From a virus, in the IMG/VR virus record IMGVR_UViG_3300046517_001220, positions 1 through 25,798 of that record: 25,798 bases of DNA. One strand, 5' to 3'. The position numbers and the translations under genes are program-made. Shown piece by piece: positions 6,690-24,326 of this stretch. How positions within the stretch are numbered: the stretch's first letter is position 1; the number at the start of each line of letters is the position of its first letter. The notes under the pieces are model-generated. The model saw only the letters and a list, made by a program, of their open reading frames with translations. It was not told where the DNA came from and ran no database searches.

Positions 6690-7097
6690 ATGGATAAAAC
6701 CCTGGTCGTGACAAACATCGACCCGTTGGCCGACGAACTCATTTTCTGCAACGACACTGCCTGCTGGAATGTGTCGCGCGCCCTGCGTGACTGTGCAGCC
6801 GAAAAGCACGACCTCTATGTGCTGGATGTGGCCGAGGCCTATGCAGCCAATGCCGCCGTCGAAGTGGATGAGGCCAAGGTGCAACGCTTCATGCGGACAC
6901 CGGATGTGTTCAGCCAGCCGCTCGTCCTGGTCATTGAAGATGGTGCAGCCTGGATGATTGACGGCCACCACCGGCTGCGCGCCATGCATCGCCTGGGCCT
7001 CACGGATTTTGCAGCCTACGTCATCGAGGAAGCCGAAGCCGCACCGTACCAAGTCTGGTATAACGGCAAGCGTAAGCCGCCTTTTCCAATTGATTGA
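6690..7097 (+). CDS. ParB/sulfiredoxin-like domain protein
   Basis: This 135-residue protein has AGGAATAGGG directly before its ATG. The core motif is Asp91-Gly-His-His-Arg95 in WMIDGHHRLRAMHRLGL, the hallmark of ParB/Srx-type nucleotide-binding domains, here with two His. In this superfamily the motif contacts a nucleotide or acts in nuclease or modification chemistry. The protein is short and lacks the HTH of partition ParB, so it is unlikely to be a partition protein. It ends the early rightward unit and faces the leftward operon convergently. The exact reaction is unknown. A second ParB-domain protein is at 18133-18768. Confidence 0.65.
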   Translation: MDKTLVVTNIDPLADELIFCNDTACWNVSRALRDCAAEKHDLYVLDVAEAYAANAAVEVDEAKVQRFMRTPDVFSQPLVLVIEDGAAWMIDGHHRLRAMHRLGLTDFAAYVIEEAEAAPYQVWYNGKRKPPFPID

Positions 7098-8645: not shown

Positions 8646-9010
8646 CGGCTCGCCTCCATGATTTGATCATTATCAAAAAGGACGTTGCTGCCAGGCCAGC
8701 GGTAGTCGATGACGCTGACAATCACTGACGGCTCAAGTGCAGCACCGCCGTCGAAGCCGCGCGCATACCAATGCACGTTGGTAAGGTTGCCGTCAGGCTC
8801 ACGGCTTGGTGCGCGGTTGGTTTTGCGCTCGCGCGTGACGCGGCCAGCATGTCTTTCGTTGGTCCAACAGTGTTTCACGGTCCTCCACCACAGATGATCG
8901 TTTGGCCAATGCGCGCGTGCCTCTGCATAGGTGTGGCATTGTTCACTTGCTTGAGCCGCTATTAGCAAACTCACCAAAAAGACCGCGAGCCACAGCGATG
9001 TAAGCCGCAT
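8642..9010 (-). CDS. Exported hypothetical protein with signal peptide
   Basis: This 122-residue protein has an excellent ribosome site, GGAGGAAGCAC, before the ATG at 9010. Residues 1-22 are a signal peptide (basic start, LWLAVFLVSLLIAAQASEQ) with a likely cut after AQA. The mature part begins with CHTYAEARAHWPNDHLWWRTVKHCW, a Cys/Trp/His-rich pattern I know from small exported phage proteins where HLWWxxxxHCW is conserved. The C-terminal half is basic, then acidic. It acts in the periplasm if the signal is used. Function is unknown. Its start lies inside the 3' end of the HNH gene. Confidence 0.65.
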   Translation of the reverse strand: MRLTSLWLAVFLVSLLIAAQASEQCHTYAEARAHWPNDHLWWRTVKHCWTNERHAGRVTRERKTNRAPSREPDGNLTNVHWYARGFDGGAALEPSVIVSVIDYRWPGSNVLFDNDQIMEASR

Positions 9011-9437
9011 GTGCTTCCTCCGGTGTTTTGAAGGTTCCTAACTCAATCCGTTTTTGGTTTTTGGTGATGTAGGCGCGGAAGTGTCCGCCCTTTGCGTGGG
9101 CCACGCCCTTAAACCCTGTCACGTTATCGCACCGCAAGCTGGTGTTGGCGTGATTCTCGGAATGTGATGCCTTGCGTAAATTTGTGATGCGGTTATCGCA
9201 TCCGTTTCCGTTGATGTGATCAAGCAGCGGTGGCCATTCGCCATAGATATAAAACCATGCAAGCTGGTGTGCGTAGTAGTGCTTCCTGTCGATGACAATT
9301 CTTAAGTATGTTCTTTTGCGTCTAACGGCCTTGCATCCCAAAATATCTTTGCAAGTGGAGCGTTTTATTTGCGCGCGAAAAATCCCTGTGTGTGGATCAT
9401 ATGTAACCAGTTGTTTCAATCGGTCCTGGGTCAGCAT
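8943..9437 (-). CDS. HNH endonuclease with AP2 DNA-binding domain (free-standing homing type)
   Basis: This is a 164-residue protein. The HNH_3-type core is around residues 57-95: His57, Asp73-His74 in LLDHINGNGCDNRITNLRKA, and the Asn of that motif. Residues about 108-158 form an AP2 domain (TGFKGVAHAKGG, then LGTFKTPEEAHAAYI). This pairing is typical of phage homing endonucleases that cut DNA at recognition sites and spread themselves. The gene is visibly richer in A and T than its neighbours. Its last 68 bases overlap the following gene, and its ATG (9437) lies inside the end of a 32-codon frame. This fits insertion into a pre-existing operon. Confidence 0.85.
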   Translation of the reverse strand: MLTQDRLKQLVTYDPHTGIFRAQIKRSTCKDILGCKAVRRKRTYLRIVIDRKHYYAHQLAWFYIYGEWPPLLDHINGNGCDNRITNLRKASHSENHANTSLRCDNVTGFKGVAHAKGGHFRAYITKNQKRIELGTFKTPEEAHAAYIAVARGLFGEFANSGSSK

Positions 9438-9529
9438 GAGGCACCGTGCGCAGCAATGATTGCAATGATGAGAATGGCGACGGCCGCGAACACAGCCAGG
9501 ATCGCCAGTGCCATGGGCTGCTTGATCAT
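9431..9529 (-). CDS. 32-residue single-pass membrane microprotein
   Basis: The frame from ATG at 9529 to TGA at 9431 starts on the previous stop (TGATG). It codes for MIKQPM followed by one hydrophobic run (ALAILAVFAAVAILIIAIIAA) and a short tail HGASC. It ends overlapping the HNH start. It could be a real membrane microprotein or a coupling ORF. The clear transmembrane helix favours the former. Confidence 0.42.
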   Translation of the reverse strand: MIKQPMALAILAVFAAVAILIIAIIAAHGASC

Positions 9530-9714
9530 CAATGCACCGTCTCGTCGGCCTGTTGTCGGTCCTCATTGACTTCGCGGATGGAGCTGGCGAAATCCCGCAA
9601 GGCCTGGGCACCGGATACTGTGCTGCCCTTGGCATCCAGACCGGCTGCACACACCTCAGCTGTCTTGGCGATGGCCTCAGTGACCATGATGACGATGCGC
9701 TCGATTTCCTTCAT
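9529..9714 (-). CDS. Small hypothetical helical protein
   Basis: This 61-residue protein runs from the ATG at 9714. It begins MKEIERIVIMVTEAIAKTAEV and has a second helix around ALRDFASSIREVNEDRQQ. The ribosome site is weak, but the frame is linked by overlaps to a microORF upstream and a membrane microprotein downstream. It probably forms a short helical hairpin. No family is recognised. Confidence 0.5.
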   Translation of the reverse strand: MKEIERIVIMVTEAIAKTAEVCAAGLDAKGSTVSGAQALRDFASSIREVNEDRQQADETVH

Positions 9715-13594: not shown

Positions 13595-13648
13595 GTTGCG
13601 TCTGCGTTGCGTTTGTTTGTTCACCAGCGAAAGGGCGGGTCCGCGCTC

Positions 13649-14170
13649 ATGGCAATGCTGCCACCAACCAGCACCCCTGCAGCTGGGCGAGGCCCGCCCC
13701 GAACATCACGGAACAAACGCTGGCCCTGTGACCTGCTGCAAAGCTTCCTGGCCCTGTGGAATGAAAACAAACTATCGGCTTCGCAAATGGCAGGGCATCT
13801 CGGCATTTCACGCGGTGCAGTCCTGGGCAAGGCTCATCGTCTCGGCCTGACCACACACCGCAAGGTCAGGCAGGCCAAGCCGCGCAAGCCACTGCCGCTG
13901 ACCTACCGGCCATTGAAAACCTTGCCGCCTGTGATGCCGATTGTGGATGAGCCAGCACCGCTGCCGCCGAATTTCCTGGGCCTGTCCCTGATTGAGCTGC
14001 AGGCATCCAGCTGCCGGTATCCGCATGGTGAGGTTGCGCCGTTTTCCTTCTGCGGCCAGGCCAAGCAGGATGGCTCATCGTACTGCCAGTATCACCACCA
14101 ACTGACGCATCACGCCCTATCAGCCTATCGGCCACTGACGGACTACATCCCTCGCGGGGTCAATCCATGA
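13649..14170 (+). CDS. GcrA-family cell-cycle regulator homologue
   Basis: This is a 173-residue protein from the ATG at 13649; upstream in-frame starts are only TTG. Residues about 25-68 match the GcrA N-terminal HTH (WPCDLLQSFLALWNENKLSASQMAGHL, then SRGAVLGKAHRLGL). Residues about 109-155 match the conserved GcrA C-terminal region (LGLSLIELQASSCRYPHGE, FCGQAKQDGSSYCQYHHQL). Cys122, Cys135, Cys146 and His149/150 are retained. Known GcrA proteins bind sigma-70 RNA polymerase and act at promoters methylated by CcrM at GANTC. The middle is Pro/Lys-rich. A phage copy may redirect host or phage promoters. I saw no methyltransferase nearby. Confidence 0.87.
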   Translation: MAMLPPTSTPAAGRGPPRTSRNKRWPCDLLQSFLALWNENKLSASQMAGHLGISRGAVLGKAHRLGLTTHRKVRQAKPRKPLPLTYRPLKTLPPVMPIVDEPAPLPPNFLGLSLIELQASSCRYPHGEVAPFSFCGQAKQDGSSYCQYHHQLTHHALSAYRPLTDYIPRGVNP

Positions 14171-15023: not shown

Positions 15024-15404
15024 ATGAAACCAGTGACACCCAATCTGATCGAGCAGGCCAAACTGCTGCGCCGCAATCATCTGTCCTGGCGCGGCATCGC
15101 CATTCGCCTGGATGTTTCCGAATGGCACATCCATTGCGCGGTCGAGCCGGGGTTTCGTGAGCATCGCATGGCCAGGCAGCGTCCACGGCAACGGGCTGAC
15201 TACAAGAGGCCGACAGTGAATAGCGCGGTGCATCACCAGGTTCGCTATGTGCACCGGCATCCGCCACCAGAGGTGCTGCGTGAAGCTGAGCTGGCATTGG
15301 AGCTGAGACTGCAGCCGCGATCGGTCACAGCTGAGCTGCTGGGTGATCCGATTTCTGGCCGCTCTGCACTTGATCAAAAACTGCGGGAGAAAAAAGCAAA
15401 ATGA
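15024..15404 (+). CDS. HTH-containing hypothetical protein
   Basis: This is a 126-residue protein from the ATG at 15024 (GGAG ten bases upstream). Residues about 6-50 form a homeodomain/recombinase-like HTH: NLIEQAKLLRRNHLSWRGIAIRL, then DVSEWHIHCAVEPGFREHR. This pattern (LSWxxIAxRLxVS...PGxRExR) is common in small rhizobial phage proteins. A basic stretch (QRPRQRADYKRP) follows, then a His-rich and helical C-terminus. It lies in the same frame as the DUF1376 gene, with no stop between them except the TAG at 14826. DNA binding is likely; the role is unknown. Confidence 0.6.
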   Translation: MKPVTPNLIEQAKLLRRNHLSWRGIAIRLDVSEWHIHCAVEPGFREHRMARQRPRQRADYKRPTVNSAVHHQVRYVHRHPPPEVLREAELALELRLQPRSVTAELLGDPISGRSALDQKLREKKAK

Positions 15405-15919
15405 ACTGGCTGACCCATCCTGATTTTCCTGCCTATGAGATTTCAGAAAATGGGCAGGTCCGACGCATCCAGGACAGCACCCGGTACAAGGCTGGTGTCA
15501 TGCACACAGGTCGGATTTTAAAATCTGGCTACAGGCAATTTCACCTCATAGACAAGAACAGAAAAAAGCGTGGCATTCGTGCCAATAGATTGGTTGCAGA
15601 AACATTTTTAGGACAAGCACCATCACCGGAACATCATGCAGCCCACAGCGATGGTGACAGGTTGAATAATGATTATCGAAATCTCAGGTGGGCGACAGCA
15701 TTAGAAAATCATGCCGACAGAATTAAGCACGGCACAGTGTTGCGTGGTGCTGAGGTCAAAACAGCTAGATTAGACGAAGATAAGATCAAAAAAATTCGTG
15801 CGGCCTGGACCGGCAAGCGCGGCGAGCTACTTTCATTTGCCAGAAAATATCAAGTTGGTACGACAACGATCAGGCGAGTGATCGAGCGCACTACTTGGCG
15901 ACACATCGAGGTTGGATGA
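15401..15919 (+). CDS. HNH homing endonuclease with NUMOD4 domain
   Basis: This is a 172-residue protein whose ATG overlaps the previous stop (ATGA). Residues 3-50 match NUMOD4 (HPDFPAYEISENGQVRRI). Residues about 60-105 match HNH_3 (NRLVAETFLGQ, AHSDGDRLNNDYRNLRW, ENHADR). The C-terminal part has an HTH (KIKKIRAAW, FARKYQVGTTTIRRVI). Domain order NUMOD4-HNH-HTH is typical of free-standing phage homing endonucleases. In HNH the first His lies in HHAAHSDGD; substitution of the usual DH by HS is seen in several NUMOD4 members. The gene is richer in A and T than its neighbours, consistent with recent arrival. Confidence 0.85.
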   Translation: MNWLTHPDFPAYEISENGQVRRIQDSTRYKAGVMHTGRILKSGYRQFHLIDKNRKKRGIRANRLVAETFLGQAPSPEHHAAHSDGDRLNNDYRNLRWATALENHADRIKHGTVLRGAEVKTARLDEDKIKKIRAAWTGKRGELLSFARKYQVGTTTIRRVIERTTWRHIEVG

Positions 15920-16725: not shown

Positions 16726-17377
16726 GAATGTCAGCACTGCCGCGAAAACCTATCTCTCGGCCATCGGTGCGGTTGCAATCTTTATCTGCACTGACAAGGG
16801 CAAACCGGTCAACATCGGTGTGGCGCGGGATCTGGACAAGGCGCTGCGCCACTTGCGAAAAATTATCTCGCCAACTGCGGCGATTGATTGGGCAGCCTGG
16901 GGAATGAACTACGCCAAGCTGGCAGAAATCGCCCAGCTGGGTGACCTGCTCTATGAGTACCAGCTTGATGGCCCTGCCAAATTAGTGCCGGTGGAGGAAA
17001 TCGCGGTGCGCATCACCATGATGGCAACGGCCAAGGGTTGTGTGCTGACACCACATTCGCGCGCCCTGGAACGCGCACAAACCTATGCCGGATATTTGGA
17101 TAAGGCGCTGGAAGGCATGCAGCGCAACGGCACATTTGCCGCCTTCAACCAGGCCTACAAGGAACATCGCCTGGCACTGCTCAAGGTGAAACAGCCGGTG
17201 CAGCCGTATTGGGCCGTGATGGCTGAATTGCGCGCGGTGATCATCCGCAGCCTGGTCGTGGACCCGAGAAATCGACTTGTGCCATCCAGCATGCTGGTGG
17301 AAATCCGCCAGGCATTTCCGTGGTTTACGAAGCCGCCGCTGATCCGTATGCGCAAGCACAAGCGCAAGGGCAATTGA
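16718..17377 (+). CDS. Hypothetical protein with possible degenerate GIY-YIG/Mug113-like N-terminus
   Basis: This is a 219-residue protein from the ATG at 16718, which overlaps the previous stop. Residues about 15-50 read GAVAIFICTDKGKPVNIGVARDLDKALRHLRK, resembling the first strands of Mug113/T5orf172-type GIY-YIG domains (GxxKIGxAxDxxxRLxxLQ). The key Arg and Glu residues for nuclease activity are not clear. The rest is helical, with a basic end (KPPLIRMRKHKRKGN). It lies between small phage genes and the HNH gene. I class it as unknown, with a weak hint of a nuclease-derived fold. Confidence 0.6.
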   Translation: MVENVSTAAKTYLSAIGAVAIFICTDKGKPVNIGVARDLDKALRHLRKIISPTAAIDWAAWGMNYAKLAEIAQLGDLLYEYQLDGPAKLVPVEEIAVRITMMATAKGCVLTPHSRALERAQTYAGYLDKALEGMQRNGTFAAFNQAYKEHRLALLKVKQPVQPYWAVMAELRAVIIRSLVVDPRNRLVPSSMLVEIRQAFPWFTKPPLIRMRKHKRKGN

Positions 17378-17472
17378 CAACACACTGCAAATCACTGAAC
17401 TCTACGCGCGTGAATTTTTCAGGGCGGAGCCGCGCCCGCAATTCACGATATTCCCAAAAACGGAATGCACTG

Positions 17473-17793
17473 ATGGCTGCTTATGCTTACGGGCAAGAGC
17501 CTTGCCCCTGGTATGGCAAGATGCGTTGGCGGCGCATGTCCAAGGCACAGTTGCGTGACCATCCTCTATGTGTGAAATGCCTGCAGCGTGGTCAAGTCAT
17601 CCCTGCCACGGTTGCTGACCACATCATCCCGCACAAAGGTGATCAGCACGCCTTCTGGTTCGGCAAACTGCAAAGCCTATGTGTGCCATGCCACAACCAT
17701 CACAAACGCTTTGAGGAATTGCGCGGCTACACCACTGACATTGATGCAAGCGGTTGGCCCACTGATCCACGCCATCCAGCAAACAGGAGTTGA
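17473..17793 (+). CDS. HNH endonuclease of the terminase-associated type
   Basis: This is a 106-residue protein; I chose the ATG at 17473, since the longer frame needs a GTG inside the previous gene. It has Cys33-x-x-Cys36 and Cys70-x-x-Cys73 zinc knuckles, Asp49-His50 in VADHIIPHKGD, and CHNHHKR, giving the ββα-metal HNH core. This small type lies upstream of terminase genes in many siphoviruses, and in HK97-type phages it is needed for DNA packaging. It ends with GWPTDPRHPANR, a tail common to this family. Note the Trp-rich start (CPWYGKMRWRRM). Confidence 0.85.
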   Translation: MAAYAYGQEPCPWYGKMRWRRMSKAQLRDHPLCVKCLQRGQVIPATVADHIIPHKGDQHAFWFGKLQSLCVPCHNHHKRFEELRGYTTDIDASGWPTDPRHPANRS

Positions 17794-18132: not shown

Positions 18133-18768
18133 ATGAAGCCTTGGCCTGCTGACAAAGTTGAAAGGATGGCAACGCTGTCGCTTGTCCCGTCAGCCCGCAA
18201 TGCTCGTCTGCATTCGGATGCGCAGATTGAGCAAATCATGGCATCCATCCGCGAATGGGGATGGACCACTCCGGTGCTGGTGGATGAGCGTGGGGTTATC
18301 ATCGCTGGCCATGGGAGGGTGATGGCTGCCGAGAGGATGGAGCTGGCTGAGGTGCCGGTTATCGTTGCTCGCGGCTGGTCAGAAGCACAGAAGCGCTCCT
18401 ACCTGATTGCCGATAACAAGCTGCCTGAAAATGCCAGCTGGGATCAGTCATTGCTGCAGTTGGAATTTGCCGACCTCAAGCAGCTTGGCTTTGATGGTCT
18501 GCTCACTGGCTTCACCGAGAACGAGATTGAAGCCTTCGGCCTGCCGGAAAACAACCCGCTGGCTGAATGGGTGGGCATGCCTGAGTTTCAGCAGAACGCC
18601 AAAAATGCCTTCCGCACTCTGATTGTTCACTTCAAGGATGCTGAAGCTGTGCAGCAATTCTGCCAGCAGGTTGGCCAGCAGCTCACCGACAAGACGAAAT
18701 TCATTTGGGTGCCACCTGTCGATGATGAAAGTTATGTCGAGCAGCAATTCCAATCCGCCGCGGAATGA
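18133..18768 (+). CDS. ParB/Srx-domain protein paired with a glycosyltransferase
   Basis: This is a 211-residue protein. Residues about 12-100 are a ParB N-terminal domain: LSLVPSARNARLHSDAQIEQI, then VLVDERGVIIAGHGRVMAAERM (motif Gly59-His-Gly-Arg62) and YLIADNKLPENASWD. The C-terminal part (about 155-205) has FRTLIVHFKDAEAVQQFCQQVG and KFIWVPP. This is a module I know from phage ParB proteins often fused to or beside DNA methyltransferases and other DNA-modification genes. It lacks the HTH of partition ParB. GGGAGGGG lies ten bases before the ATG. It is immediately followed, without gap, by the glycosyltransferase, suggesting joint action on DNA. Confidence 0.8.
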   Translation: MKPWPADKVERMATLSLVPSARNARLHSDAQIEQIMASIREWGWTTPVLVDERGVIIAGHGRVMAAERMELAEVPVIVARGWSEAQKRSYLIADNKLPENASWDQSLLQLEFADLKQLGFDGLLTGFTENEIEAFGLPENNPLAEWVGMPEFQQNAKNAFRTLIVHFKDAEAVQQFCQQVGQQLTDKTKFIWVPPVDDESYVEQQFQSAAE

Positions 18769-19671
18769 ATGAACCCGCAATTTCCGGTTTACATTTGCTC
18801 CAAGCGTAGAGCAGCCAGCCGCCTCACCATGAGGCACCTCGATGCAATGGGTGTTCCTTACCTGGTGATAGTCGAGCACCAGGAACTGGCTGCCTATTCC
18901 TCTGTGATTGATCCTGCCAGGCTGCTGGTGCTGCCTGAGCAGTACCAGCAGAAATATCAAACCTGTGACCCTGCTGGTGATGAGCAGGGATTGGGCAAAG
19001 GACCAGGACCAGCCAGGAATTTTGCCTGGGCGCATGCCATCAGCCAGGGCCATGCCTGGCATTGGATCATGGATGACAACATTGCCGGATTTTACCGGCT
19101 CAATCAGAACCACAAGACAGCCGCAGGCGATGGCACGATCTTCCGCTGCATGGAGGATTTCTGTCTGCGCTACAGAAATGTTGCCATGGCCGGTCCTGCC
19201 TATGAGCTGTTCACACCGCGCAAGAAAAAGCACCTTCCCATCATTCTCAATTCCCGCATCTACAGCTGCAGCCTGATCCGCAACGATGTGCCGTTTGAAT
19301 GGCGCGGCCGCTACAACGAGGACACCGACTTATCCTTGCGCATGCTCAAGGCGCACTGGTGCACCATCCAGTTCAATGCCTTCCTGCAAAAGAAGATCGG
19401 CACTCAGAGGATGACCGGTGGCAACACTGATGAATTTTATTCCAAGGAAGGGACGCTACCGAAGTCGCAGCTGCTGGTGAAAATGCACCCTGATGTGGCC
19501 AAGGTGGTGTGGAAGTTTAACCGCTGGCATCACTTCGTGGACTACAGGCCCTTTGCCAATAACAAGCTGCTCAAAAAACCTGGTGTGGCTGTGCCTGATG
19601 GCATCAATGAATATGGCTTGGCGCTCAAGCAGCAACGCTACTCTGCAGTGAAGCTGCAACCAGTGAGCTGA
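18769..19671 (+). CDS. TET-associated-type (TAGT/GREB1-like) glycosyltransferase
   Basis: This is a 300-residue protein starting directly after the ParB stop (TGAATG). Motifs match the TAGT family: FPVYICSKRR (5-14), GKGPGPARNFAW (77-87), HWIMDDNIAGFYRL (98-111, with the DDN metal/sugar-nucleotide motif), DGTIFRCMEDF (121-131), RIYSCSLIRNDVPFEWRG (163-180), RYNEDTDLSLRML (181-193), then GGNTDEFY (217-224) and RWHHFVDYRPF (252-262). The family has a GT-A fold and in phages is thought to glycosylate hydroxylated bases in DNA. No TET/JBP oxygenase or hydroxymethylase gene is in the window, so its substrate is open. The family call is strong; the reaction is inferred. Confidence 0.83.
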   Translation: MNPQFPVYICSKRRAASRLTMRHLDAMGVPYLVIVEHQELAAYSSVIDPARLLVLPEQYQQKYQTCDPAGDEQGLGKGPGPARNFAWAHAISQGHAWHWIMDDNIAGFYRLNQNHKTAAGDGTIFRCMEDFCLRYRNVAMAGPAYELFTPRKKKHLPIILNSRIYSCSLIRNDVPFEWRGRYNEDTDLSLRMLKAHWCTIQFNAFLQKKIGTQRMTGGNTDEFYSKEGTLPKSQLLVKMHPDVAKVVWKFNRWHHFVDYRPFANNKLLKKPGVAVPDGINEYGLALKQQRYSAVKLQPVS

Positions 19672-19675
19672 CCCA

Positions 19676-20170
19676 ATGGGAAAACGCGGGCCGCGTCGAG
19701 TGCCGACGCATCTGAGATTATTGCGCGGCAACCCTGGCCATCAAACACTGCCCAGGGATGAGCCGCAGCCAGCCATTGCACAAACACTGGAGCCGCCGCC
19801 TTTCCTGATTGGCTATGCCAAGGAGGAATGGATTGAGGTGGCGCAGGAGCTGCACCGCCTCAAATTGTTGAGCCGTGTTGATACCAAGCCGTTGGCTGCC
19901 TACTGCCAGGCCTATGCCATTTGGCGCATGGCCGTTGAAGCCTTCACTGAAATCTCGGCGCGTGATCCGCAGATGCATGGCCTGATGATCAAAGCTGCCA
20001 ATGGCACACCCTTGCAAAATCCTGTGCTGCTGACAGCCAGGCAGGCTGCCCAGGACATGGTGAGGTTTGCATCCGAATTTGGCTTCACCCCTGCAGCCAG
20101 GTCACGCATTTCCACCAGCAACAGCGAAGTGGCTGAAAGCAAGTTTGGCAACCTCATCCTCGCAGGCTAA
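19676..20170 (+). CDS. terS: Terminase small subunit, P27 family
   Basis: This is a 164-residue protein starting MGKRGPRRVPTHLRLLRGNPGH, a classic P27 (Terminase_4) beginning. It is followed by EPPPFLIGYAKEEWIEVAQELHRL, DTKPLAAYCQAYAIWRMA, and near the end FASEFGFTPAARSRIS. Small terminases bind the packaging site and recruit the large subunit. The ATG is four bases after the glycosyltransferase stop; a ribosome site is weak, so coupling is likely. Its last 26 bases overlap the large terminase. Confidence 0.9.
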   Translation: MGKRGPRRVPTHLRLLRGNPGHQTLPRDEPQPAIAQTLEPPPFLIGYAKEEWIEVAQELHRLKLLSRVDTKPLAAYCQAYAIWRMAVEAFTEISARDPQMHGLMIKAANGTPLQNPVLLTARQAAQDMVRFASEFGFTPAARSRISTSNSEVAESKFGNLILAG

Positions 20171-21725
20171 GCGCACCAAGGACAGCAGGCAGCGCGCCAA
20201 GGACGTTATTGATTTTATCGAATGCCTGACCGTGCCCAGCGGCAACGGCCAGGGTGAGCTGTTCAAGCTGCAAAAGTGGCAGAAAGACTTTATCCGCGAC
20301 ATTTATGAGCCTGCACTGCCGGATGGTCGGCGCGTGGTGCGCAGAGCCATTTTGTCGATGGCGCGCAAGAATGGCAAAACCGCACTGATTGCCTGCCTGG
20401 CTTTGGCGCACCTGGTTGGTCCTGAAGCTCGGCACAACAGTGAAATCTATTCCGCTGCAAACGACCGCGACCAGGCTGGCATCATCTTCAAATTTGCCAA
20501 GCAGATTGTTGAGCTCGAACCCGAGCTGAGCCGCAAGGTGGAAATCATCACCTCCACCAAGACCATGGTGGTGCGCAGCATGGGGTCGATGTACCGCGCC
20601 ATATCTGCCGAGGCCGGGACCAAGCACGGCTATCTGCCCACCTTGGTGATTTATGATGAGCTGGCCCAGGCCAAAAATCGCGACCTCTATGATGTGCTGG
20701 ACACCTCATTTGGAGCTGCGCGCGAGCCGCTGTTCATTGTCATTTCAACGCAGAGCAATGATCCTGAGCATGTTCTCTCGCAATTGATTGATGATGGCCT
20801 GGGCGAAGATCCGACCATTGTTTGCCATCTGTTCGCGGCCGATGAGGATTGCGACCTGGATGACCACGAGCAATGGAAAAAAGCCAACCCGGCTCTGGGA
20901 ATTTTTAGAGACCGTGATGACTTCGTGGCATCCATCGACAAGGCAAAGCGCATGCCTGCCGAGGAACCGAAAGTCAGGAACCTGCTGCTCAATCAGCGGG
21001 TGTCACCAGCAGCCACTTTGATCAGCCGCGCCGAATGGATGGCTTGCGCCGGCGCAGTCACATTCACACCAGGTGAGGAAGTGTACCTGGCGCTGGACCT
21101 GTCCAATGTCCTGGACCTGACCGCGCTGCTGATGTGTTCAACCGATGATGTGGCTCGCATCCAGCCCTATTTCTGGAAGCCGGATGACCCGCTGGGCGAA
21201 CAAAGCTTCAGGGATTTTGGCTCAGGCAATTACAGATACCTGGAATGGAAAAACGCCGGGCATATCCAGACCACGCCCGGCAAGTCGGTCAACAAGGAAA
21301 TCATTGCCCGGCACATTGCTGAGCTGACCCAGCTCTATAACGTCAAGGCGCTGGCTTATGACCGATGGCGCATTGAAGATTTGTTGCGCGAGTTTGACCG
21401 TATCGGCCTGCAATCCTTCAAGGAAGGTGACAAGGGTGATGGGCTTAGGCTGGTGCCCTGGGGTCAAGGCTTCAAGGATATGGCACCGGCCATCGATGCG
21501 CTCGCCATCGCGGTGACAGATGGCAAGCTGATCCATCCCAGCAATCCCTGCCTGAGCTGGAACATGGCGAACGCGATCGCAGTCATGGACCCGTCAGGCA
21601 ATCGCAAGCTGGACAAAGAAAAATCGCGCATGCGCATCGACGGTGCAGTGGCACTGGCCATGCTCATGGGCCTGCGTTCGCGCGACCGCATCCGACAAGT
21701 CGATATTGAAACCATGATCGTATGA
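20145..21725 (+). CDS. terL: Terminase large subunit (HK97-type), apparently non-ATG start
   Basis: This is about 526 residues from a TTG at 20145. No ATG or GTG exists between the TerS overlap and the start of conserved sequence, so the start is uncertain (another TTG at 20067 would overlap TerS far more). ATPase: ARKNGKT (about 73-79, Walker A), LVIYDE (about 167-172, Walker B). Nuclease: LALDLS (about 315) and LAYDRWRIEDL, later DGAVALAML. It translocates and cuts DNA during packaging. The family is Terminase_1-like. The overlap of 26 bases with TerS suggests coupling. Confidence 0.92.
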   Translation: MATSSSQAKRTKDSRQRAKDVIDFIECLTVPSGNGQGELFKLQKWQKDFIRDIYEPALPDGRRVVRRAILSMARKNGKTALIACLALAHLVGPEARHNSEIYSAANDRDQAGIIFKFAKQIVELEPELSRKVEIITSTKTMVVRSMGSMYRAISAEAGTKHGYLPTLVIYDELAQAKNRDLYDVLDTSFGAAREPLFIVISTQSNDPEHVLSQLIDDGLGEDPTIVCHLFAADEDCDLDDHEQWKKANPALGIFRDRDDFVASIDKAKRMPAEEPKVRNLLLNQRVSPAATLISRAEWMACAGAVTFTPGEEVYLALDLSNVLDLTALLMCSTDDVARIQPYFWKPDDPLGEQSFRDFGSGNYRYLEWKNAGHIQTTPGKSVNKEIIARHIAELTQLYNVKALAYDRWRIEDLLREFDRIGLQSFKEGDKGDGLRLVPWGQGFKDMAPAIDALAIAVTDGKLIHPSNPCLSWNMANAIAVMDPSGNRKLDKEKSRMRIDGAVALAMLMGLRSRDRIRQVDIETMIV

Positions 21726-22229: not shown

Positions 22230-24326
22230 ATGAACCAGAGAATGCCGCCACCGGATGATGATGAGGATTATTCCGATTTCATGGACCGCTGCACCCTGGA
22301 GCTGGACCAGGATGAATGTCAGGACATCTGGGATGAGGAACGCAGCGGTGGTGACAACATCATCCGCAAGACGCATGCGCAAAAAGTCGAGGGCATGGAA
22401 TTTGTCATGTCCGACGAGACGCCAGACCGCATGGACGACATCATCATGGCGGATGGCTGGGAGCTGGACAACTTCAAGAAAAACCCGATTGCACTGTTCG
22501 GCCATCGCAGTGATTTCCCGATAGGCAAGTGGAGCAATCTGCGTGTTGAGAATAAGCAACTGCGCGGCCAGCTCGAGCTGGCACCAGCAGGCACCTCAGA
22601 GCGCATTGATGAAATCAGAAGGCTGATCGAGGCTGGAATATTGCGCGCGGTGTCGGTCGGCTTCCATCCAAAAGAGTCGGTGGCGCTGGATCATAAAAAT
22701 CCGTTCAGCGGCTACAAATTCACCAAGCAGGAATTGATCGAAACCAGCCTGGTCAGTGTGCCAGCAAATCCGAATGCACTGGCTGTGGCCAAGTCACTGA
22801 AGATTTCACCCGAAACGCAGCAACTCGTTTTTGCCGGGCATGGCAGACGAAACGCTTTGCTGCGGCGCGGGCTCACCGGCGGGCATGCCGATCCCAAGAT
22901 GCAAAACAGAAAGGGCGCGACCATGTCGTTAGCTCAACGCATTGTTGAAATGGAAAAAGGCCTGCTGGAAAAAACCGACAAGCTGGCTGCCTTCCATGAA
23001 AGCAAAGGCAACGGAAACTACAGCGACGAAGATATTGAGACAGTCGGCAAGTCGAATGCCGAAATCCAGCGCGATGAAAAGCTGCTGGCCGTGTTGCGCG
23101 AGTCCGAGAAAAGCATGGGCAAGGCCAGTGATGACGGTGGCCGCACGGTCGTGTCTCATGCAGCCAAGGCCAATGGCTCAACCTCCATCGTCACGCCGCC
23201 GCGACCCTTCAATGTCGCAACGAAAAAACTGTCACCGCTCGATCTGTTGTGCAGGGCTGGTGCCATCCAGGTGCTTGCGCATCGCGATCACAAGCCTGCT
23301 GCTGAAATCTGCCGCATGGTGTACGGCGACGACGAAGCCACCAGGGCCGTGCTTGATTGGCAAATCAAGGCGGCAAGCGCCCCAGCCATGACCACGGTCA
23401 CCGGCTGGGCTGCTGAGCTGGTGCAGCAGATCGTTGTTGACTTCATGGCAACCCTCTATCCGAAATCAATCTACCCGAGGTTTTCGAGTTTAGGGCTGAG
23501 CCTCAGTTTCGGCCGCAACGGCAAGATCATCATTCCGACCAGGAGCCGCACACCGACAATTGCTGGCTCATTCGTCGGTGAAGGTTTGCCCATCCCGGTT
23601 CGCCAGGGTGCCTTCACATCGCAAACCTTGCTGCCGAAAAAGATGGCAGTCATCACCACATGGACGCGCGAGATTGATGAACACTCAATCCCGGCGATTG
23701 AAGGCCTGCTGCGTGATGCCATCCAGACCGACACCGCAATCGCATTGGACAGTGTTTTGATTGACAGCAATGCGGCAACGGTCATCCGGCCTGCAGGTAT
23801 CCTCAACGGTGTCTCAGGCCTGACCCCAACAGCAGGCGGCGGCTTCACTGCCCTGGTCGGTGACATCAAAGCACTGACCAATGCATTGCTGACAGGAACG
23901 CTGGGCAATGTGCGCAATCCGTGCTGGTTGATGAACCCGGCCCAGGTCAACAGCATTGGCTTGGTGGCAGCTCCTGGTGCGGGTGTGTTCCCGTTCCGCG
24001 AGGAAATCGGCACCGGCAGGCTGGGCGGCTGGCCGGTCATCGACAGCGGCACAGTGCCACTCGGCACAGTGATCGTGGCCGATGCTGCAGATTTTGTCAG
24101 TGTGACGGGTGACGGACCCAGGTTCGAAATTTCGGACCAGGCAACCTTGCACATGGAGGATACTGCGCCGACTGACATCAGCACATCCGGCACCCCGGCC
24201 GTGGTTGCCTATCCGGCGAAGTCGATGTTCCAGACCGACAGCCTGGCGCTTCGCCTCATCATGCCCATCAACTGGACATTGCGCCGCACTGGTGTGGTGG
24301 CCTGGGTGGCCGGAGTAACCTGGTAA
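22230..24326 (+). CDS. Prohead protease fused to major capsid protein (HK97-type)
   Basis: This is a 698-residue protein with AAGGAAA seven bases before the ATG. Residues about 48-190 are a S78/U35 prohead protease: His92 in ALFGHRSDFPIGKW, Ser173 in ELIETSLVSVPANPNA. Residues about 232-310 form a coiled-coil scaffolding (delta-like) part. Residues about 340-698 are an HK97-fold capsid domain (for example WAAELVQQIVVDFM, FGRNGKIIIPTRS, SDQATLHMEDTAPT, SLALRLIMPINWTLRR). The protease would release the capsid by cutting near the scaffold. An internal ATG at 22923 (Met232) with AGAAAGGGCG upstream could give the scaffold-capsid part alone. Confidence 0.92.
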   Translation: MNQRMPPPDDDEDYSDFMDRCTLELDQDECQDIWDEERSGGDNIIRKTHAQKVEGMEFVMSDETPDRMDDIIMADGWELDNFKKNPIALFGHRSDFPIGKWSNLRVENKQLRGQLELAPAGTSERIDEIRRLIEAGILRAVSVGFHPKESVALDHKNPFSGYKFTKQELIETSLVSVPANPNALAVAKSLKISPETQQLVFAGHGRRNALLRRGLTGGHADPKMQNRKGATMSLAQRIVEMEKGLLEKTDKLAAFHESKGNGNYSDEDIETVGKSNAEIQRDEKLLAVLRESEKSMGKASDDGGRTVVSHAAKANGSTSIVTPPRPFNVATKKLSPLDLLCRAGAIQVLAHRDHKPAAEICRMVYGDDEATRAVLDWQIKAASAPAMTTVTGWAAELVQQIVVDFMATLYPKSIYPRFSSLGLSLSFGRNGKIIIPTRSRTPTIAGSFVGEGLPIPVRQGAFTSQTLLPKKMAVITTWTREIDEHSIPAIEGLLRDAIQTDTAIALDSVLIDSNAATVIRPAGILNGVSGLTPTAGGGFTALVGDIKALTNALLTGTLGNVRNPCWLMNPAQVNSIGLVAAPGAGVFPFREEIGTGRLGGWPVIDSGTVPLGTVIVADAADFVSVTGDGPRFEISDQATLHMEDTAPTDISTSGTPAVVAYPAKSMFQTDSLALRLIMPINWTLRRTGVVAWVAGVTW

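Follow-up and report, generated by a model that had tools for sequence, protein, structure and literature searches.

A domain of about 53 residues at the C-terminus of a phage ParB-like protein, here called acc, appears from its genomic associations to be best explained as an obligate and undescribed partner domain of the clade of TAGT glycosyltransferases to which the enzyme of this phage belongs, in a comparison that leaves out Iyer et al. 2013. We lean towards the reading that the ParB-acc protein and the TAGT encoded by the next gene would form one two-part machine that glycosylates phage DNA. The acc-TAGT system is widespread, being found in phages of many bacterial phyla, with members that have none of the enzymes usually preparing DNA for such a sugar. 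TAGT stands for TET-associated glycosyltransferase, a name given for the association with TET enzymes, and the family was reportedly predicted by Iyer et al. in 2013.

Gene layout and the TAGT protein

The window (the whole stretch of DNA that was analysed, 25,798 bases making up an entire IMG/VR record) probably represents part of a temperate phage genome, with the portal gene only partly within it at the right edge. The pair and its surroundings are as follows.

17320..17793, + strand: HNH endonuclease, upstream context (PF01844, 5.6e-5; phrog_2323, 5.7e-29)
18133..18768, + strand: ParB-acc protein, 211 aa (phrog_620, 5e-49; purifying selection)
18133..18537, + strand: ParB/Srx-fold N-terminal domain, aa 1-135 (tblastn; fold match of the homologue L194 to 7bnk/7bnr)
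18307..18318, + strand: GHGR, the GxxR box II of the ParB nucleotide-binding fold, aa 59-62 (sequence)
18565..18723, + strand: acc domain, aa 145-197, putative obligate TAGT partner (HMM; reciprocal association)
18769..19671, + strand: TAGT GT-A glycosyltransferase, 300 aa (PF20691, E = 1.7e-40; GT-A fold of a homologue)
19072..19080, + strand: DDN motif, aa 102-104, expected DxD-like NDP-sugar/metal site (invariant in the alignment)
19315..19329, + strand: NEDTD motif, aa 183-187 (alignment)
19417..19437, + strand: GGNTDEF motif, aa 217-223 (alignment)
19676..20170, + strand: terminase small subunit, context (PF05119, 4.3e-25)
20067..21725, + strand: terminase large subunit, context (phrog_9, 4.6e-121); translation probably begins further downstream than the listed TTG

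The first-pass annotation had assigned the 300-residue protein to the TAGT family, and the profile search bore this out: the product of 18769-19671 matched the Pfam TAGT profile PF20691 with 139.6 bits (curated cut-off, 27.5 bits), and its ORF matched phrog_842 at 3e-43. The DDN, NEDTD and GGNTDEF motifs that had been pointed out are all present and fall largely in invariant columns in an alignment of 19 diverse homologues. Against near relatives, dN/dS was 0.08-0.09 for TAGT and 0.07-0.15 for ParB-acc, and these low values indicate that both are functional genes. Neither TAGT nor acc has a relative by sequence in the PDB. E. coli genomes, searched with the Pantoea homologue, gave no match, and nor did plasmids.

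Elsewhere in the window, a homologue of the GcrA cell-cycle regulator at 13607-14170 (PF07750, 2.8e-21) suggests an alphaproteobacterial host. The ORF at 632-2296 encodes a collagen triple-helix repeat protein (PF01391) that is probably a tail fibre, and a single 698-aa ORF at 22230-24326 is a prohead protease fused to the major capsid protein. A second ParB-like protein (ParBc_2 putative nuclease, PF08857) lies at 6690-7097, a position unrelated to the ParB-acc/TAGT pair, and two homing-type endonucleases, AP2-HNH and NUMOD4-HNH, are found at 8943-9650 (- strand) and 15401-15919 (+ strand). Searches of the window for Rfam families and for tRNA found neither.

Association of acc with TAGT, and the origin of the ParB domain

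It had been proposed that a ParB/Srx protein with a GHGR motif is paired with the TAGT that directly follows it. The adjacency is real, with zero gap between the two ORFs, and the phrog_620 match and the GHGR at aa 59-62 support the ParB assignment. However, the conserved partner is the C-terminal acc domain, and ParB is one carrier of several: it is present in 106 of the 189 acc-bearing ORFs, while most of the others are short and stand-alone, and some have acc fused in front of TAGT. ParB was therefore dropped as the specific partner of TAGT in favour of acc. The acc pattern comprises W-x-GMPEF, a hydrophobic strand ending in F (vhF), a helix containing an invariant F and, after these, Q and TxKTKxIWxP; the domain is absent from Pfam.

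A TAGT scan of viral contigs gave 66 loci, of which four are cut off; in each of the 62 testable ones acc is either next to TAGT or part of the same protein. The same holds in GTDB genomes for 44 of 44 testable loci (among the 46 TAGT loci, acc was found by profile in 43 and by eye as a divergent copy in L111, and two are cut off). Conversely, three acc-only scans with alignments from three lineages found TAGT within the flank in 235 of 240 loci (79, 79 and 77 of the best 80 each, remoter acc domains falling outside this scope), and in the other five the contig ends 29-573 nt past acc. These scans overlap one another and the TAGT-first set. In the INPHARED TAGT phages examined, acc likewise adjoins TAGT or is joined to it, and in INPHARED acc occurred only with TAGT, barring chance-level matches; those to Streptococcus tape-measure genes (E = 0.6-0.8) were dismissed as chance.

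Among 167 unique acc/TAGT pairs, 14 are fused, 122 are no more than 30 nt apart (mostly overlaps of -11 or -4 nt), and 27 are more than 150 nt apart. Two loci, L194 and L096, encode ParB, acc and TAGT as one polypeptide, a natural fusion. Among the products of genes found between acc and TAGT are second TAGTs, a GT4-like enzyme, radical SAM proteins, class I SAM methyltransferases, an FkbM methyltransferase and an NAD-dependent epimerase. Most of these intervening genes thus encode a second glycosyltransferase, a SAM methyltransferase, a radical SAM protein or a sugar epimerase, which suggests that some phages build a larger decoration. One SAM-methyltransferase family recurs at this position (L137, L148, L152, L155, L157 and L031), and in L008 and L162 radical SAM proteins stand there instead. 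Two complete acc-TAGT pairs lie in tandem in L181 (2662-5030), and Vibrio phage Kuja (L200) has two acc-TAGT fusions side by side. In L078 (1895-4309), an intein/Hint domain lies inside the terminase large subunit.

The AlphaFold2 model of the L194 fusion had a pLDDT of 88 and a pTM of 0.71. Residues 14-104 matched the solved ParB structures 7bnk and 7bnr (Z = 12.6-12.7, rmsd 1.7-1.8 Å over 90 residues, 28% identity), and residues from about 210 to 467 matched GT-A enzymes (GalNAc-T2: Z = 14.4, 230 residues, 4.5 Å). COLGALT1 and two peptide S-glycosyltransferases, SunS and ThuS, are among the nearest glycosyltransferases in Foldseek; the substrates of the closest GT-A folds are peptides, proteins or polysaccharides. 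An AlphaFold2 model of acc alone had a pLDDT of 75 and zero fold matches in the PDB.

The ParB part of the protein scored 24.1 bits against Pfam ParB_N, slightly below the cut-off of 26.3. GHGR is the commonest form of box II among 92 unique acc-linked ParB domains; GxxR, the box II motif of the ParB fold as defined in PMC12704722, predominates, and some domains have GNGV-like forms. The protein is not a canonical partition ParB: the 211-aa chain has no further Pfam domain that would supply the HTH or the C-terminal dimerisation domain, and Pfam scans of the window ORFs found no ParA.

By tblastn, aa 4-135 of the ParB half share up to 67% identity with the N-terminal part of adenine DNA methyltransferases of phages (phrog_498/620 type), which occupy the same slot before the terminase; in MW202748, a ParB-adenine methyltransferase stands directly before the terminase genes. 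Among 406 phage records matching the ParB half by tblastn, none reached the acc part or 80% of the protein. The match ends at aa ~135-173, and acc occupies aa 145-197 with no C-terminal methyltransferase domain. Thus, unlike the ParB-adenine methyltransferases, the window has acc in place of the methyltransferase domain and TAGT as the next gene, and from the shared N-terminus and the same slot it follows that the methyltransferase domain was exchanged for acc plus TAGT. Phages are thus seen to replace one module by another, methyltransferase by glycosyltransferase, while the ParB domain in front stays the same. The ParB-CTPase fold fusions of phages (PNAS 2025, PMC12704722) likewise join a ParB fold with the GxxR box II to a modifying-enzyme module; the fusions named in the passages located there are with methyltransferases and DUFs, and its main text yielded no glycosyltransferase fusion. 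A DNA adenine methyltransferase, identified by Pfam as MT-A70 in L048, lies immediately upstream of acc-TAGT in the 19 loci of a second lineage.

Handle-making enzymes and known TAGT systems

Pfam scans agree with the first-pass annotation that no oxygenase, hydroxymethylase or methyltransferase, the kinds of enzyme that would make a handle for the sugar, is visible in the window. Its suggestion that such an enzyme lies in an unseen part of the genome has been weakened. G002 and G004, which represent the same phage type with ~86% DNA identity, lengthen the map at either end, and Pfam found no oxygenase, thymidylate-synthase-type enzyme or DNA methyltransferase in the resulting ~37 kb, where integrase, portal, sheath, tube and baseplate genes were covered. 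The nearest long relative is G005, with 59.8 kb; neither it nor G002 and G004 showed a C5 methyltransferase, a thymidylate-synthase-type enzyme, a 2OG oxygenase or a TET/JBP enzyme, and in G005 the sole product encoded between acc and TAGT is a radical SAM/SPASM protein. The profile of the thymidylate-synthase-family hydroxymethylases (PF00303) matched none of 39 related records including the window, while its positive controls did match and T4 and T6 were matched too, and the 2OG-oxygenase profile PF13640 matched none of 31. The TET/JBP profile PF12851, for which no positive control matched, gave no match in 50 phage records, in 27 host genomes plus five phages, or among 396 genomes of one phylum, a result that was not taken to prove absence. 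The C5 methyltransferase profile PF00145 matched four of 31 related records; such an enzyme, as in an Erwinia prophage about 7 kb from TAGT, was considered as the handle source and rejected, since only these four records have one. Since no known handle enzyme was found in the ~37 kb or in G005, since hydroxymethylase and the 2OG-oxygenase profile are absent from the related records (39 of 39 and 31 of 31), and since phage Aeh1, which also has acc-TAGT, is without gene 42 (PMC2993671), the missing enzyme is probably not merely unseen.

The annotation had also linked phage TAGTs to TET/JBP enzymes, which is too strong as a rule: the T6 TAGT is a DNA glucosyltransferase that acts on glucosylated 5hmC downstream of dCMP hydroxymethylase (PMC13216743). 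The same 2026 study reported solitary TAGTs of no defined function, which accounted for 288 of the 753 phage genomes with glucosyltransferase homologues. The T6 enzyme (beta-glucosyl-HMC-alpha-glucosyltransferase) is in the same Pfam family, with 37.2 bits compared with 139.6 for the window protein, and has the GT-A fold in common. It has no acc domain, and the profile of the window's clade misses it (E = 0.14). While the T6 gene adjoins a thymidylate-synthase-family gene annotated as thymidylate synthase, the window's clade recurs without a hydroxymethylase. Thus, by profile and fold, the window protein is a TAGT family member, but it is not of the T6 type, since the linkage to a hydroxymethylase was not found.

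Closer relatives are the acc-TAGT fusions of Aeromonas phages Aeh1, 65 and phiAS5, Tenacibaculum phage PTm1, Vibrio phages Kuja, henriette, 1.076.O and 1.124.O, and Pectobacterium phage POP12. In these phages TAGT is ~50% identical to that of the window and acc is usually fused at the N-terminus, and, unlike in the window, no ParB domain was seen in the phages examined. For the glucosyltransferase of Aeh1, PMC8056088, with reference to Iyer 2013, gives an 'unknown base' as what it modifies.

The acceptor and the proposed machine

It is likely that DNA would be the target of the window's TAGT clade, because the ParB domain is shared with DNA methyltransferases, MT-A70 enzymes are neighbours, and the T6 TAGT acts on DNA. 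In the machine that we propose, the ParB/Srx domain, derived from the phage ParB-adenine methyltransferases, would bring the complex to DNA and may work as a nucleotide-gated clamp. The acc domain, replacing the methyltransferase domain, would be the obligatory adaptor or subunit of TAGT that holds or activates the glycosyltransferase; their constant association and natural fusions point to physical docking. TAGT, which has the fold and motifs of a GT-A enzyme, would by analogy with its family use a nucleotide-sugar as donor and attach the sugar to a base. Many phages have acc without ParB, so targeting to DNA through ParB would not be universal. Protection from nucleases is the likely benefit, and an anti-restriction role is plausible.

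Since the phage type and most relatives have no recognisable handle enzyme, the acceptor is probably not 5hmC or 5hmU made by a known phage route; for the proposed machine, it is most likely that the base is not 5-hydroxymethylcytosine from such a route. A bolder version, which we put forward tentatively and consider doubtful, is that acc and TAGT by themselves make up a complete two-component system for DNA glycosylation in phages of many bacterial phyla, in which a base receives its sugar with no known enzyme hydroxymethylating it first and acc is the essential subunit for acceptor recognition. A glycosyltransferase needs a nucleophile, and we know of no precedent for direct base glycosylation by the TAGT family without a handle enzyme.

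An ordinary two-step hypermodification, in which an unrecognised phage enzyme or the host makes a hydroxymethylated or hydroxylated pyrimidine, TAGT glycosylates it and acc is a DNA-binding accessory, would fit the activity of T6 TAGT on glucosylated 5hmC and the TET association behind the family name. The C5 methyltransferases in four of 31 carriers and in the Erwinia prophage, the radical SAM proteins of L008 and L162, and the fact that the negative TET/JBP searches came from a profile without a positive control are also in its favour. However, it meets the zero counts for the thymidylate-synthase family (39 records) and PF13640 (31 records) and the ~37 kb of this phage type with no known handle enzyme, and a common host-supplied handle is unlikely since the carrier hosts span distant phyla. 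We therefore regard it as unlikely.

The acceptor might instead be a protein, whether a virion protein, the tail fibre or the acc protein itself, with ParB an adaptor of other use. The protein and peptide glycosyltransferases COLGALT1, SunS/ThuS and ppGalNAc-T as closest GT-A folds, the collagen-repeat tail-fibre gene of the window, and the small size and constant adjacency of acc, as expected of a modified peptide, are in keeping with this. Yet similarity of GT-A fold does not fix the acceptor, the ParB that carries acc is taken from DNA methyltransferases, acc is also found beside such enzymes, and the relative in T6 acts on DNA, so that a protein acceptor seems quite improbable. That the pair are chance neighbours, two unrelated cargo genes, has almost no probability: genes beside phage terminases are often variable cargo, but the reciprocal association, the translational overlap and the natural fusions refute it for acc and TAGT, and for ParB the two polypeptides that naturally join all three domains speak against it.

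For the proposed DNA-glycosylating machine, acc gives the clade an obligate partner for co-expression, deletion and assay, which makes the acceptor question directly testable. The findings also suggest that several database entries are misnamed: several RefSeq records of these acc-TAGT fusions have the name beta-glucosyl-HMC-alpha-glucosyltransferase, which the gene content of Aeh1 does not support, and the name is probably a misannotation because carriers such as Aeh1 are without dCMP hydroxymethylase. L196 (4695-5894) and its RefSeq relatives are cases in point.
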